DNA of 40,213 nt. Origin: Elusimicrobia bacterium RIFOXYA2_FULL_39_19 (GTDB lineage: Bacteria; Elusimicrobiota; Endomicrobiia; CG1-02-37-114; XYA2-FULL-39-19). Under the pieces are notes generated by a model. The model ran no database searches, was not told where the DNA came from, and saw only the letters and a list, made by a program, of their open reading frames with translations. The translations under genes and the position numbers were made by a program. The DNA is taken from the NCBI GenBank assembly GCA_001800285.1, contig MGVC01000049.1:11966-52178 (forward strand). Reading direction: 5' to 3'. Below, one piece after another: positions 21,207-30,890 of this stretch (the first letter of the stretch is position 1; each line of letters starts with the position of its first letter).

Positions 21207-22661
21207 ATGGAAAATTTTAACGCACCTTGTCCCTTAAAAAAGCTGGATGACTGGCGCTGGGAACTGCCCCGGCAAACCGGAATGAATACAGAAGGGCTGG
21301 TTTTTGCGTCGGAAAAAATGATTTCTGCTATTTGCGGTGACAAGGCACATCAGCAGGTGGCAAATGTGGCGCACCTGCCGGGAATTGTTGGCAAGTCACT
21401 TGCTATGCCTGACATTCATTGGGGTTACGGCTTTCCCATTGGCGGGGTAGCTGCGTTTGATTTGACTAGCGGGGTTATCTCTCCCGGGGGTATTGGTTAT
21501 GATATTTGTTGTGGAATCCGATTGCTTAGGACAAACCTAAAAAAAGCGAACATTGAAAATAAAATACAGAAATTAATTGATAACATGTTTTACAATATTC
21601 CGTCGGGTGTGGGCTCTACCGGAAAAATAGCGCTTAAAAAAGAAGAAGTAAAACAGGTTTTAAACGAAGGCGCAAAATGGGCTGTAAAAAAAGGATACGG
21701 CACACCTGAAGATTTGAAACATACAGAAGAGGAAGGCTGTCTTAGCGGGGCAAATGCTGATAAGGTAAGCTCCCGCGCTTTGGAACGCGGGCATGAGCAG
21801 TTAGGCACCCTGGGTGCCGGCAATCATTTCCTTGAAATTCAGGAAGTAGAACAAATATTTGATGAAACGGCAGCAAATGCTTTTGGCCTATTTTTAGGAC
21901 AAATTACAGTAATGATTCATACCGGGTCGCGCGGGTTAGGCTACCAGGTTTGCGACGACAGCATAAGAAACCTGCAGACTGCGACGCAAAAATATGCCAT
22001 CCGTTTGCCGGACCGCCAGCTGGTTTGCGCGCCTGTTGAGTCAACTGAAGGAAAAGATTATTTTTCTGCCATGGCCGCGGCAGCAAATTATGCCTGGGCT
22101 AACAGACAGATAATAACCCACTGGGTCAGGCAGACATTTACAGAAGTGCTTGGCAAAAAACAAACCGAAATTGGGCTTGAACTGGTTTATGATGTAGCGC
22201 ATAATATTGGAAAATTTGAACAGCATTTGCATAACGGCAAACCGCAGAAACTTTTTGTTCACAGAAAAGGTGCAACCCGCGCATTTCCTGCGGGGCAGGC
22301 GTCAATTCCGGAGGATTATAAAACCGTTGGCCAGCCGGTTATTGTGCCTGGCACAATGGGTACGGCATCATACATTTTAGCTGGCACGCAGAAAGCCATG
22401 TATGAAACCTGGGGCAGTACCTGCCACGGAGCGGGCAGAGTGATGAGCAGAACCGAATCCCTTAGAAATGTAAGAGGCCGGCAGTTAGTAGAAGAACTTG
22501 GAAAAAAAGGTATAATATTGAAAGCGGAAAGTTATAAAACGCTGGCTGAAGAGGCCCCTCAGGCATATAAAGATGTTAACCTGGTAGTTGAGGTGTGCCA
22601 TCAGGCAGGCATTTCAAAAAAGGTAGCTAAAATGCGCCCATTGGGAGTCATTAAAGGATAG
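21207..22661 (+). CDS. rtcB: RNA-splicing ligase RtcB (484 aa)
   Basis: RtcB joins RNA 2',3'-cyclic phosphate or 3'-phosphate ends to 5'-OH ends using GTP and Mn2+. All hallmark blocks are present: 'MPDIHWGYGFPIGGVAAFD', 'GGIGYDICCGIRLLR' with the metal-binding Cys, 'LGTLGAGNHFLEIQ', 'IHTGSRGLGYQVCDD', 'DVAHNIGKFEQH', 'HRKGATRAFPAG', 'VIVPGTMGTASYIL' and 'CHGAGRVMSR', the last carrying the His that is guanylylated. Length and order fit a full, active enzyme. No archease or RtcA gene is beside it. The stop codon TAG (22659-22661) shares its last base with the first unit of the following tandem repeat. The mRNA may be leaderless. Confidence 0.95.
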   Translation: MENFNAPCPLKKLDDWRWELPRQTGMNTEGLVFASEKMISAICGDKAHQQVANVAHLPGIVGKSLAMPDIHWGYGFPIGGVAAFDLTSGVISPGGIGYDICCGIRLLRTNLKKANIENKIQKLIDNMFYNIPSGVGSTGKIALKKEEVKQVLNEGAKWAVKKGYGTPEDLKHTEEEGCLSGANADKVSSRALERGHEQLGTLGAGNHFLEIQEVEQIFDETAANAFGLFLGQITVMIHTGSRGLGYQVCDDSIRNLQTATQKYAIRLPDRQLVCAPVESTEGKDYFSAMAAAANYAWANRQIITHWVRQTFTEVLGKKQTEIGLELVYDVAHNIGKFEQHLHNGKPQKLFVHRKGATRAFPAGQASIPEDYKTVGQPVIVPGTMGTASYILAGTQKAMYETWGSTCHGAGRVMSRTESLRNVRGRQLVEELGKKGIILKAESYKTLAEEAPQAYKDVNLVVEVCHQAGISKKVAKMRPLGVIKG

Positions 22662-22939
22662 TGACTAAGTGATTACGTGATTAAGTGGTTAGTAAAAGCA
22701 TGCAAAACTAAAAACAAAACCAGTGACTAAGTGATTATGTGATTAAGTGGTTAGTAAAAGCATGCAAAACTAAAAACAAAACCAGTGACTAAGTGATTAC
22801 GTGATTAAATGGTTAGTAAAAGCATGCAAAACTAAAAACAAAACCAGTGACTAAGTGATTACGTGATTAAGTGGTTAGTAAAAGCATGCAAAACTAAAAA
22901 CAAAACCAGTGACTAAGTGATTACGTGGTTAGTAAAGAC
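22661..22939 (+). repeat. Tandem 62-bp repeat, four full units plus a partial one, built of octamers
   Basis: Units start at 22661, 22723, 22785, 22847 and 22909 (partial), exactly 62 bp apart, with only single-base differences (for example T at 22737, A at 22809). The first half of each unit is four octamers of the form GTGRYTAN (GTGACTAA, GTGATTAC, GTGATTAA, GTGGTTAG); the second half is an A-rich spacer with GCATGC. The near identity shows recent expansion. The partial last unit runs into the promoter of the four-helix-bundle gene. Confidence 0.9.
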
Positions 22940-22954
22940 TTCATCAAAAAGTGT

Positions 22955-22960
22955 TATAAT
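22955..22960 (+). promoter_or_regulatory. -10 box of the four-helix-bundle gene
   Basis: TATAAT ends seven bases before the chosen ATG at 22968, with no ribosome binding site between. This again predicts a leaderless transcript and supports the ATG at 22968 over the in-frame start at 22917 inside the repeat. Confidence 0.45.
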
Positions 22961-22967
22961 TAATAAA

Positions 22968-23339
22968 ATGGAAAAACCAAATTTTATAAAAAGTTATACT
23001 GACTTAATCGTTTGGCAAAAAGGCATAGAGCTGGTGAAAACAATATATGCGATTACTAATTGTTTTCCAAGAAGCGAAATGTTCGGCATTACCTCTCAAA
23101 TGAGAAGAGCTTCGATATCAATTCCATCAAATATCGCCGAAGGTTTTCTAAGAAATCACAGACCAGAAACAATACAGTTTCTTTTTATTGCACTTGGTTC
23201 TTGTGGCGAATTACATACTCAATTGATAGTAGCTAAGGAACTAAATTATCTTGAGAAACACAAAGCCTTAAGCATTATTGATGAATTAACCTTTATTAGC
23301 AAAATGCTAAGAAATTTAATAAAAAGTTTAAAAAAATGA
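22968..23339 (+). CDS. Four-helix-bundle protein, 23S rRNA intervening-sequence (S23) type (123 aa)
   Basis: The protein starts MEKPNFIKSYTDLIVWQKG and continues with 'FPRSEMFGITSQMRRASISI' and 'PSNIAEGFLRN', the signature of the S23/four-helix-bundle family (TIGR02436 type). These proteins are encoded in intervening sequences of 23S rRNA genes and also, as here, free-standing between genes; their function is not established. Length matches the family. A frame extends upstream to 22917, but that part is repeat DNA, so I use the ATG just after TATAAT. The gene is flanked by octamer repeats in opposite orientation, which suggests that it moves or moved as a small unit between rtcB and serS. Confidence 0.85.
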   Translation: MEKPNFIKSYTDLIVWQKGIELVKTIYAITNCFPRSEMFGITSQMRRASISIPSNIAEGFLRNHRPETIQFLFIALGSCGELHTQLIVAKELNYLEKHKALSIIDELTFISKMLRNLIKSLKK

Positions 23340-23351
23340 TTTGGTTAGCCT

Positions 23352-23375
23352 GCTAATCACTTAACCACTAACCAC
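23352..23375 (-). repeat. Inverted counterpart of the octamer repeat, after the four-helix-bundle gene
   Basis: Read on the minus strand this is GTGGTTAGT then GGTTAA, GTGATTAG: the same octamer family as in 22661-22939 but inverted. It lies 13 bp after the stop codon and 24 bp before serS, so the gene sits between inverted repeat ends. Confidence 0.7.
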
Positions 23376-23398
23376 AAACCACTATTTTCGAGGTGCTT

Positions 23399-24667
23399 AT
23401 GCTGGATTTAAAATTTATCAGAGACAATACGGACAAAGTAAAAGACGCGTTGAAAAAAAGAAATTCAAAAATTACGCTAGATGATTTTTTGGTTTGGGAT
23501 AAATCCCGCAGAGATTTGATTGCCGAAACCGACACTCTGCGCGCAGAGCGCAAAAAATTATCCGAAGAATTCGGTAAACTGAAAAAAAGCGGACAGGATG
23601 CCGGCCACTTAAGCGCTAAAAGTGATGAAGTTGCCAAAAACTTGCAGGAAAAACAGACAAAACTTGAAGAAACTGAGAAACTTATAAATGACTTTGTACT
23701 TCAGATGCCCAATATTCCCGACGATACAGTCCCCGTCGGCGCCACCGCGGAAGAAAACAAAGTAGTCCGCCAGACAGATAAACATAACACTCTGGGAACA
23801 GATAAACCTAAAGGCCACTGGGAACTTGGCGAGAAACTGGGCATCCTTGATTTTGAAAGAGCGGCCAAAATATCCAGCTCCCGCTTTGCTTTATATAAAG
23901 GAAAGGGCGCGGCGCTTGAAAGAGCCCTGTTTACATTCATGCTTGACACCCACACCAAAGAACACGGGTATACAGAAATTTTCGGCCCCTACCTGGTAAA
24001 CAGCAAATCTGCCACCGGCACCGGCCAGCTGCCGAAGTTTGCCGAAGAAATTTACAAATGTGCGGAGGATGATTTGTATTTGATTCCTACGGCAGAAGTA
24101 TCTGTAACCAATATGCACCGCGATGAAATATTAAACGAAAATGAATTGACTATAAAATACGTTTCTTATTCGGCCTGTTTCCGCAGAGAAGCCGGTTCAT
24201 ACGGCAAAGATACTAAAGGGCTTATTAGAAACCACCAGTTTAACAAAGTAGAACTGGTAAAATTTTCCAAACCTGAAAATTCTATGGATGAACTGGAAAA
24301 ACTTACACTTAATGCGGAAGAAATACTAAAAAAACTGAAACTCCAATACAGGACCGTTGCGCTTTCTACTGGAGATTTAGGCTTTTCTTCCAGCAAGACT
24401 TATGACCTTGAGGTTTGGATGCCAGGTGAAAACCTGTGGCGTGAAGTTTCTTCCTGCAGTAATTTTAAGGATTTTCAGGCACGCAGAATGAACATCAAGT
24501 TTAAAAGAGAAAACGGCACCAAAGAATATGTACATACTTTAAACGGGTCCGGCACCGCCGTAGGCAGGATTTTTGCCGCCATTTTGGAAAATTACCAGCA
24601 ATCTGACGGGTCAATAGTGATCCCTGAAATATTGAAAAAATATCTGGATTTTGAAAAAATAAACTAA
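23399..24667 (+). CDS. serS: Seryl-tRNA synthetase (422 aa)
   Basis: This class II aminoacyl-tRNA synthetase charges tRNA-Ser. The N-terminal about 110 residues form the long antiparallel coiled coil that grips the tRNA-Ser variable arm (LDLKFIRDNTDKVKDALKKR to KLEETEKLINDFV). Catalytic motif 2 is 'CFRREAGSYGKDTKGLIR' and motif 3 is 'LNGSGTAVGRIFAAILENYQ'. I start at the ATG at 23399 because GAGG lies at 23390-23393; the in-frame GTG at 23393 overlaps that ribosome binding site. Length is usual. It is followed after 26 bp by the FkbM-like gene. A tRNA-Ser(UGA) gene lies about 6 kb downstream. Confidence 0.96.
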   Translation: MLDLKFIRDNTDKVKDALKKRNSKITLDDFLVWDKSRRDLIAETDTLRAERKKLSEEFGKLKKSGQDAGHLSAKSDEVAKNLQEKQTKLEETEKLINDFVLQMPNIPDDTVPVGATAEENKVVRQTDKHNTLGTDKPKGHWELGEKLGILDFERAAKISSSRFALYKGKGAALERALFTFMLDTHTKEHGYTEIFGPYLVNSKSATGTGQLPKFAEEIYKCAEDDLYLIPTAEVSVTNMHRDEILNENELTIKYVSYSACFRREAGSYGKDTKGLIRNHQFNKVELVKFSKPENSMDELEKLTLNAEEILKKLKLQYRTVALSTGDLGFSSSKTYDLEVWMPGENLWREVSSCSNFKDFQARRMNIKFKRENGTKEYVHTLNGSGTAVGRIFAAILENYQQSDGSIVIPEILKKYLDFEKIN

Positions 24668-29979: not shown

Positions 29980-30145
29980 ATATCCTTGAATTGTCAATCA
30001 AAAAAAAGTAGAATGAAGGACATTACATTAGTTATTTGTATTTATAAATGTTGAAATATTTCTGAGATTTGAAATTTGAGATTTGACCGCAATCGATTTT
30101 CTAATATCTATTATCAATTGCTCTAATTTTACAAAGCAAAATTAC

Positions 30146-30256
30146 GGAGAGATGACCGAGCGGTTGATGGGTTGTCGTGCGACGAATAAGGAGCACATGC
30201 CTGGCAACGAGCGCGAGTTGGTGAGCGCTCAGGCAGCAGAAACCTGCTCTTGCCGA
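30146..30256 (+). ncRNA. Structured element E0: tRNA-Ser 5' half fused to three hairpins
   Basis: The first 25 bases (30146-30170) are identical to the first 25 of the tRNA-Ser at 30299 (acceptor 5' strand and D arm). Then the sequence leaves the tRNA and folds into hairpin I (GTTGTC 30171-30176 with GGCAAC 30203-30208; inside it GTGC 30177-30180 with GCAC 30193-30196, loop containing GAATAA), hairpin II (GAGCGC 30209-30214 with GCGCTC 30225-30230, loop GAGTTGGTGA) and hairpin III (GGCA/GCAG with CTGC/TGCC, about 30232-30255). Hairpins I and II recur in E2 with different stems. A possible promoter (TTGACC 30083-30088, 16 bp, TATCTA) lies upstream and a T-rich tract follows. No coding frame is credible here. 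Confidence 0.6.
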
Positions 30257-30298
30257 GGTCTTTCAAATAATTCGTTCTTTTTTTATTTTATTGCTAAC

Positions 30299-30385
30299 GG
30301 AGAGATGACCGAGCGGTTGATGGTGCTGGTCTTGAAAACCAGTGTGCCCTTCCGGGTACCGGGGGTTCAAATCCCTCTCTCTCCG
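30299..30385 (+). tRNA. tRNA-Ser (anticodon UGA)
   Basis: Acceptor stem GGAGAGA (30299-30305) pairs with TCTCTCC (30378-30384), discriminator G at 30385, no encoded CCA. The anticodon arm is CTGGT-CTTGAAA-ACCAG with anticodon TGA. A long variable arm (class II tRNA) and a T arm with TTCAAAT loop follow. This is a complete, well-formed tRNA-Ser reading UCA/UCN codons. It sits inside an array of tRNA-Ser-derived structured elements. Confidence 0.95.
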
Positions 30386-30408
30386 TTTCGTTATCATATT
30401 TTTTATAG

Positions 30409-30459
30409 ACACGGCTATCCGCCGTATCAAAAATATAACTCAACGGAACACAGCCGTTT
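30409..30459. repeat. REP-like palindromic element (copy 1)
   Basis: Two small hairpins: ACGGC-TATCC-GCCGT (30411-30425) and AACGG-AACACAG-CCGTT (30442-30458). The second half, from ATATAACTC at 30433, recurs at 30910-30936, so this is a dispersed repeat. Confidence 0.6.
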
Positions 30460-30502
30460 AAAACAAAAAAACAACCTTTATTACAGGTTGTTTTTTTGTT
30501 TT
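30460..30502. terminator. Perfect 18-bp hairpin terminator after tRNA-Ser
   Basis: The 18 bases at 30460-30477 (A-rich, ending ACAACCT) pair perfectly with 30485-30502 (AGGTTG then T7), 7-nt loop. It has T-tracts on both strands and can end transcription in both directions. Confidence 0.8.
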
Positions 30503-30511
30503 ATATTGATA

Positions 30512-30647
30512 GGGATTTGAAGCCAAGTCGAACGCTGCCTGGAATGGCAGAAGAGCGAATTTTGTAGTTTAAATGAGCGTAAGTGAGACTGGCAGGGCTC
30601 TGGAGGAGGAACGAAGTGACGGGGGAAGAGAAATCCCTCTCTCTCCG
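30512..30647 (+). ncRNA. Structured element E1 ending in the tRNA-Ser 3' end
   Basis: The closing stem pairs GGGATTT (30512-30518) with AAATCCC (30631-30637). Inside, after 'GAA', GCC-A-AGTC pairs with GACT-GGC, with CTGCC-TGGAAT-GGCAG at the tip side and a purine-rich strand CGTAAGTGA opposite GAACG. The last 17 bases (30631-30647, AAATCCCTCTCTCTCCG) are identical to the tRNA-Ser 3' end at 30369-30385. E2 has the same outer plan with different stem bases. No protein is likely to be coded here on either strand. Confidence 0.6.
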
Positions 30648-30688
30648 CATAAAAAAAGGAACAGATAAATCTGTTCCTTTTTTTATGC
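30647..30688. terminator. Perfect 20-bp hairpin between E1 and E2
   Basis: GCATAAAAAAAGGAACAGAT (30647-30666) is the exact inverse complement of 30669-30688. It has A/T-tracts on both arms like a bidirectional terminator. Its first base is the discriminator-equivalent G at the end of E1. Confidence 0.75.
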
Positions 30689-30693
30689 GTAAC

Positions 30694-30890
30694 GGGATTT
30701 GAAGGCGACCCGAGCGCATCCAGTGGATGAAAAGTCCGTCGTTTTGTTTCATGACGGACGTAAGCGAGGGCGCCGGGGTGTACGCTGTGACGAATAAGTC
30801 ACAGCTAGGTAGTACACGCCAGCGAGTTGGTGAGCTGGCAGGCCCGCAGGGGCGAAGGAAGAGCGATAGCGATGGGTGAGCAGAAATCCC
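30694..30890 (+). ncRNA. Structured element E2, the most complete unit of the tRNA-Ser-associated family
   Basis: The closing stem pairs GGGATTT (30694-30700) with AAATCCC (30884-30890). Next come 'GAA' and GGCG-A-CCC pairing with GGG-CGCC, enclosing CATCC-AGT-GGATG and GTCCGTC/GACGGAC hairpins and the CGTAAGCGA strand. Then the domain shared with E0 follows: GTGTAC (30778-30783)/GTACAC (30812-30817) around GCTGTGAC-GAATAA-GTCACAGC, and directly after it GCCAGC-GAGTTGGTGA-GCTGGC (30818-30839). A small GCCC-GCAG-GGGC hairpin follows. The high GC of this unit contrasts with its AT-rich surroundings. Confidence 0.65.

Follow-up and report, generated by a model that had tools for sequence, protein, structure and literature searches.

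A twin-hairpin module flanking a tRNA-Ser gene in an Elusimicrobiota genome is probably the core of a dispersed, mobile palindromic DNA repeat

A two-hairpin domain that occurs twice around a tRNA-Ser gene of Elusimicrobia bacterium RIFOXYA2_FULL_39_19 is, in our judgment, probably the ~60-bp conserved core of a palindromic DNA element that is dispersed, mobile, and non-autonomous. The domain had been noticed in a sequence-only reading of the 40,213-nucleotide stretch analyzed here (the window), in which it was ascribed to selection on RNA structure. Its copies are dispersed over unrelated sites, begin at a fixed boundary after GG, are associated with duplication of the target, and are missing from a sister species; we therefore regard the module as a mobile repeat rather than as a single conserved RNA gene or leader, its probable mobility being read from its distribution. 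The module is best read as representing a new family of palindromic repeats that are mobile and non-autonomous, similar in kind to REPs and to Rickettsia palindromic elements (RPEs), and falling outside the definition of a REP.

The features of the locus lie on the plus strand and center on an intact tRNA-Ser(TGA) gene at 30298–30386 (ARAGORN; Rfam RF00005), which represents the restored target. Upstream of it, positions 30144–30170 hold a left copy of the target, consisting of one or two leader bases and the 5′ part of tRNA-Ser as far as the D-loop (..TTGATGG); repeat comparison within the window showed this stretch to be identical to 30297–30323 (27/27 nt). The core module of element E0 follows at 30171–30230, with a hairpin I composed of a GTTGTC/GGCAAC stem, a GAATAA loop, and a 3′ bulge, and a hairpin II composed of a GAGCGC/GCGCTC stem and the loop GAGTTGGTGA. 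Downstream of the tRNA gene lie E1 (30512–30647), a palindromic element of a second kind recognized from repeats and from sister copies at other tRNAs, and E2 (30694–30890), an E1-like outer element delineated from related places and its fold, which surrounds one twin-hairpin module (30778–30839). In this module, hairpin I has a GTGTAC/GTACAC stem, the GAATAA loop, and a 6-nt bulge, and hairpin II has a GCCAGC/GCTGGC stem and, again, the loop GAGTTGGTGA. The coordinates, stems, loops, and 3′ bulge given for both modules in the sequence-only reading were correct to the base. Two insertions of the module around one tRNA-Ser gene account for its presence in both E0 and E2. Because the left tRNA copy precedes E0 and the intact gene follows it, E0 is probably co-transcribed with tRNA-Ser.

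The 5′ boundary of the module is sharp: the module begins directly after GG, most often GG18-19 of a tRNA D-loop. Among 164 distinct copies, the 5′ neighbor is GG in 106, CA in 27, and AG in 18, and 51 copies have a tRNA gene within 160 bp (for Elusimicrobiota, 45 of 123). Thirty insertion events have the same tRNA intact downstream, 24 in sense and 6 in antisense orientation, and 16 of the 24 sense insertions fall exactly after nucleotide 18 or 19, in the D-loop GG. In tRNA genes, the part between the insertion point and the end of the tRNA is duplicated, a length of 9 to more than 60 nt; in 26 of the 30 events the duplication extends as far as that end, and it continues a median of 5 nt past it. 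Since the target stretch is duplicated, an intact tRNA remains; duplications of variable length, coupled with selection for an intact tRNA, would leave the pattern that we observe.

Further insertion sites include T-arms, one anticodon loop, Shine-Dalgarno sequences, and the loops of other palindromic repeats. The Shine-Dalgarno insertions (AAAGGAGG) are at unrelated genes (L150, L153, L155, and L160, from bacterium CSMAG_1143 and others, and L223–L227 in G003), and several of them repeat AAAGGAGG 3′ of the element. The module is also found between the arms of other palindromes (GTCATTCCTGCA...CGCAGGAATCC in G024 and CCCTCGCCCCTTGCGGG...GAGGGTGAGGGG in G138) and within GTCATTCC..GGAATCC repeats. 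At non-tRNA sites, duplication is at chance level and the flanks pair with each other (8.5 vs 6.9, p = 5e-8). The outer flanks are complementary to each other and differ in sequence at every kind of site.

E1 contains no twin-hairpin; elements of its type show at T-arms the kind of complementarity to the target that the tails of tRNA-borne modules show (described below). At the start of both E1 and the outer part of E2 stands the T-loop region in reverse complement (GGGATTTGAA); the tRNA-Ser 3′ end is copied directly at the end of E1 (AAATCCCTCTCTCTCCG), and E2 closes with the first part of it, AAATCCC. In the source genome, this second element type, GAAGCCGACCCGAGCGC..GCGAGGGCGGC..GAAGYGACGGGGGAAG, follows genes for tRNA-Ser, Leu, Gln, Met, and Gly. 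Every copy opens with an antisense T-loop segment matched to its own tRNA (Ser GGGATTTGAA, Gln AGGAGTCGAA, Leu GGGAATTGAA, Gly GGGAATCGAA), and several copies end with the 3′ end of that tRNA. The E2 outer element has seven related places in the source genome, the best of which adjoin tRNAs; the one at tRNA-Met is 83% identical across 127 nt. A similar arrangement is present at L162 in a Clostridia MAG.

A covariance-model search of the source genome (3.09 Mb) yielded seven copies of the module at E <1e-4, three of them, including E0, from outside the seed, and all seven adjoin tRNA genes. Related elements lie beside tRNA-Met, Leu, Gln, Gly, Glu, and Asn genes in this genome. The module is present in 17 of 60 genomes of near relatives and in 33 of 295 genomes of Elusimicrobiota, reaching at least 29 copies in the richest (copy numbers of element-rich genomes are lower bounds); many genomes of the same class are without it. 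The sister species G020, which belongs to the same genus as the element-rich G138, lacks the element, and an ordinary leader stands before its tRNA-Ser(TGA) gene. In G024, copies that are nearly identical occur in differing surroundings. Exact pattern matches were additionally obtained in Nitrospira, Clostridia, and Deltaproteobacteria MAGs, whose copies conform to the covariance model. One copy, L007, was discarded as a chance 16-base match within a coding region. Phage and plasmid collections returned tRNA similarity only and no match to the module, and viral contigs gave no exact match with two patterns; a phage or plasmid origin was rejected on these grounds.

Some copies occur in compound arrangements. 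At five Nitrospira loci (L138, L156, L157, L161, and L170), the module lies within a larger repeat whose ends are inverted, CAGGATGCTCAAAAAGGCCG...CTTTTTCAGCATCCTG, and some of these copies hold two different modules in a row. L102 of G024 holds a tandem array (495–770) of about 4–5 twin-hairpin units of 60–61 bp at the end of an ABC-transporter-like gene.

We propose a mechanism in which an enzyme would recognize the folded single strand through the bulged hairpin I, with its GAATAA loop, and hairpin II, with its GAGNYGGTGA loop. In an exposed loop, this enzyme would join the 5′ end of the module to the 3′ end of a GG; the substrate would probably be single-stranded DNA at the replication fork. 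An insertion into a tRNA gene would survive only if repair or template switching recopied the target from the tRNA end, which would place, in this order, the left half, the element, a short stretch antisense to the target, and the intact tRNA. Under such a scheme, tRNA genes would serve as tolerated landing sites, and no function of the element for its host need be invoked. We found no transposase or recombinase tied to the element and saw no autonomous form that carries a gene. The window does contain a gene for a 23S rRNA intervening-sequence protein (PF05635; 22917–23339), which is located between rtcB and serS, inside an array of GTGACTAAGTGATTACGTGATTAAGTGGTTAGTAAA-like repeats (22660–23400). 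We rejected this protein as the mover: its neighborhood in relatives is inconsistent, and it is absent from the element-bearing genomes G001, G002, G044, and G048.

One possible, if tentative, alternative is that the module is a REP-like element moved by a host Y1 transposase (RAYT or IS200-IS605 type) acting on the lagging-strand template. Such a mover would fit strand-specific insertion after a short motif, the bulged hairpin, the Watson-Crick stems, and the nesting of palindromes, which has been reported for some REPs (PMC3733652). Y1 genes are present in 22 of the 33 element-bearing genomes of the phylum and are commoner in those near relatives that bear the element (12/17 vs 12/43, p = 0.004). 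However, the module has no GTAG or CGTC tag, its target duplications are atypical of Y1 transposition, and no copy was found within 1.5 kb of the sampled Y1 genes; the 18 loci sampled, among them 12 around Y1 genes of relatives and two around tRNAs in the source genome, gave no match. Y1 genes are also absent from G019, a complete genome in one contig, and none was found in G026, which has at least 18 copies of the module. With a weak phylogenetic association and no physical one, the Y1 transposase was not retained as the mover.

We consider it rather unlikely that the copies accreted through replication template switching at hairpins, a process in which palindromes provoke the polymerase to switch between repeats and no dedicated enzyme takes part. 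The variable length of the duplications, the antisense copy of the target, insertion into the loops of palindromes, and the tandem module arrays at L102 are consistent with this route; against it, the constant 5′ boundary and the recurrence in distant phyla of a constant 60-bp unit with invariant loops suggest recognition by a protein.

The fold and its covariation bear on whether the hairpins are kept as RNA or as DNA. Thermodynamic folding reproduced hairpin I, with its outer stem, inner stem, GAATAA loop, and 4–6 nt 3′ bulge; hairpin II, with 6 bp and a loop of 10 nt, was likewise reproduced in E0 and in four of five other copies. In the fold of E2, the register of hairpin II was shifted. 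The module is 58–62 bp long, and its two unlike hairpins keep a fixed order. Two pairs in the inner stem of hairpin I are often non-standard (GAC/GGA in the GACGAATAAGGA type), which makes the inner stem two-state: either it is fully paired or a GA-rich internal loop closes it. The whole E2 element folds far better than its shuffles (z = −6.2; 0/200). Because E0 alone is not exceptional in folding energy (z about −1.2 vs shuffles), E0 and E2 were by themselves suggestive only.

The sequence-only reading had proposed a covariance-model search and a statistical covariation test, and both bore out its observation. We built the model from four copies, namely E2, one at tRNA-Met, and one at each of two tRNA-Gly genes, with E0 left out and with a MAFFT alignment that took no account of structure; the covariation pattern was visible already in this seed. 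Decisively, the model recovered E0 (E = 4.2e-7), L054, and L056, each from outside the seed; it matched E2, a seed member, with E = 8e-15. In an alignment of 41 copies, 18 of 19 pairs changed on both sides, and the covariation score was 0.604, compared with 0.164 for shuffled alignments and at most 0.113 when the partners were slid; none of 500 shuffles scored as high. In these copies 88.5% of cells pair, against 22–42% with the 3′ partners slid by 1–3 columns, a percentage that is inflated, as is that for the second set, by the fitting of both alignments to the covariance model. The second set, of 84 further copies, had changes on both sides in all 19 pairs and a score of 0.486 (0.140 shuffled; slid, at most 0.103). 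Loops are nearly invariant across copies and stem changes are compensatory. The observation is far beyond chance.

The pairs that make up these stems are almost purely Watson-Crick. G-U accounts for 0.9% of standard pairs in the first set of copies and 1.8% in the second, versus 9.0% in the source genome's 44 tRNAs (acceptor and T stems), a 5- to 10-fold depletion (Fisher 2e-11 and 1e-10). With G-U scarce and the intermediates that an RNA would tolerate missing, we read the covariation as upkeep of a DNA palindrome; it points to hairpins kept as DNA rather than as an RNA fold, although palindrome-perfecting repair could be an alternative cause of the depletion. What the sequence-only reading had called selection on RNA structure is thus partly supported. 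It stands with regard to adjacent hairpins, strong covariation, identical loops, and compensatory stems; RNA is less likely as the selected molecule, since near-pure Watson-Crick pairing is unusual in a selected RNA and to be expected in a palindrome kept as DNA, and the distribution is that of a mobile repeat.

For these reasons it is unlikely that the module is a functional structured RNA, transcribed with tRNA or downstream genes, binding a protein or tRNA, and conserved for that role. The covarying stems and nearly invariant loops would be expected of such an RNA, E0 lies within a probable tRNA transcription unit, and several copies in CSMAG and G003 genomes occupy 5′ UTRs immediately before start codons. 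Yet against it stand, in addition to the near absence of G-U pairs, the unrelated positions and neighbors of the copies (proC, metF, exbB-like, tRNAs, and intergenic repeats), the GG boundary and target duplications, and the absence of the module from many genomes of the same class. Rfam, in keeping with the earlier statement that no named RNA family has this pattern, returned no family at its gathering threshold for E0, E2, or eight further copies; across the window, it recognized only tRNA and a fluoride riboswitch (RF01734; 39931–40009, minus strand).

It is highly improbable that the copies are remnants of tyrosine-integrase integrative elements with tRNA genes as attachment sites: duplicated tRNA 3′ ends or 5′ halves do flank elements in the manner of attL and attR, but the identity blocks come from many different tRNAs while the module is unchanged, most copies are away from tRNAs, the sense side of the D-loop is favored instead of the 3′ end, and cargo and integrase are absent, with no integrase or other gene between the duplicated tRNA parts of the ~100–250-bp tRNA-borne units.

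Returning to the mobile palindromic repeat, its tRNA-borne copies have a further feature in the segment between hairpin II and the duplicate: this segment often matches, in reverse complement, the sequence that spans the insertion point in the intact target. The mean complementarity of these tails is 6.8, as compared with 5.4 for shuffled sequences (p = 1.5e-4) and 5.5 at other sites (p = 8e-4). The E0 tail (30231–30254) is a partial complement of the intact target, GAGCGGTTGATGG and TGC on the two sides of the insertion point (local alignment score 8; shuffled, 5.3). Other examples are L054 (tail GCTCAATGTTGGAG; target GCTCAATG and GTGGAG), L060 (tail GACGGAGATTTGAA; target GAC and GGAGATTTGAA, identical), L104 (tail TTCTTACC..GGAAGT), and several tRNA-Ser tails (GATGCCC..GCGGTT). 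Complementarity is strong in about 10 events and weak or absent in the rest. The tails of Asn-type insertions are alike across genera (L054, L064, and L078), so some tails are old. That the tail acts as a guide, carried by the element or gained on insertion and complementary to both sides of the target loop, is a distinctly doubtful proposal; if true, such nucleic-acid-guided insertion would give DNA elements a means of homing into tRNA genes that has not been described before.

Among known repeats, REPs and REPINs resemble the module in being short and palindromic, with bulged hairpins and many intergenic copies. They differ in that REPs of the GTAG and CGTC superfamilies carry those terminal tags, in whose place the module has a GG or CA boundary; REP units are single hairpins of 20–40 bp, often in inverted dimers, whereas the module measures ~60 bp and its two hairpins adjoin each other and share an orientation. 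GTAG REPs and REPINs associate with a Y1 (RAYT) gene and the module, in 18 sampled loci, does not; unlike REPs, the module lands inside tRNA genes with duplication. RPEs are elements of ~100–150 bp inserted into genes, best known from reading frames, for which no mover is known. The module is like them in consisting of palindromic repeats within genes, a comparison made by description only; RPE-4 and RPE-6 have been equated with CGTC repeats (PMC3733652). The module is small, non-autonomous, and dispersed, as are MITEs, but has neither constant terminal inverted repeats nor a target duplication of fixed length, and its outer stem copies the target site. The E. coli tyrT repeats, which encode rtT RNA, are units downstream of a tRNA gene at one locus, each with a copy of the tRNA 3′ end. 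E1 likewise carries a tRNA 3′-end copy downstream of a tRNA gene, but the tyrT repeats include no twin-hairpin module and form no dispersed family, and the present locus has no Rfam match to them. Intervening sequences of 23S rRNA are extra hairpins in rRNA loops with complementary ends, which are excised from the transcript and may carry the S23 gene. They have been described in Coxiella (PMC4990558). The module similarly places hairpins in the loops of structured-RNA genes, with the difference that the tRNA gene is duplicated, not fragmented. In the literature covered, which lies outside subscription journals, we found no paper on repeats of this kind in Elusimicrobia or Endomicrobium.

The module would add to these a multi-phylum family of mobile palindromes that land in tRNA loops and leave the tRNA gene working, and it bears on how small, gene-free repeats spread and on why tRNA genes collect insertions. 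It also provides a caution that strong covariation in genomic DNA does not necessarily denote a functional RNA; G-U scarcity and the architecture of target sites can tell a DNA palindrome from one. A covariance model derived from module copies would give an annotation to many repeats of Elusimicrobiota and Nitrospira that are so far unexplained.

Two minor observations concern the tRNA genes themselves. The stretch that follows tRNA-Ser in the window (30387–30440), TTTCGTTATCATATTTTT..ACGGCTATCCGCCGTAT, is common to the tRNA-Ser genes in L004 and L040, imperfectly so in L040. At L078 in G038, a group I intron (Rfam RF00028; 1662–1894) lies near a twin-hairpin copy at a tRNA-Asn-like gene, which the intron probably interrupts.
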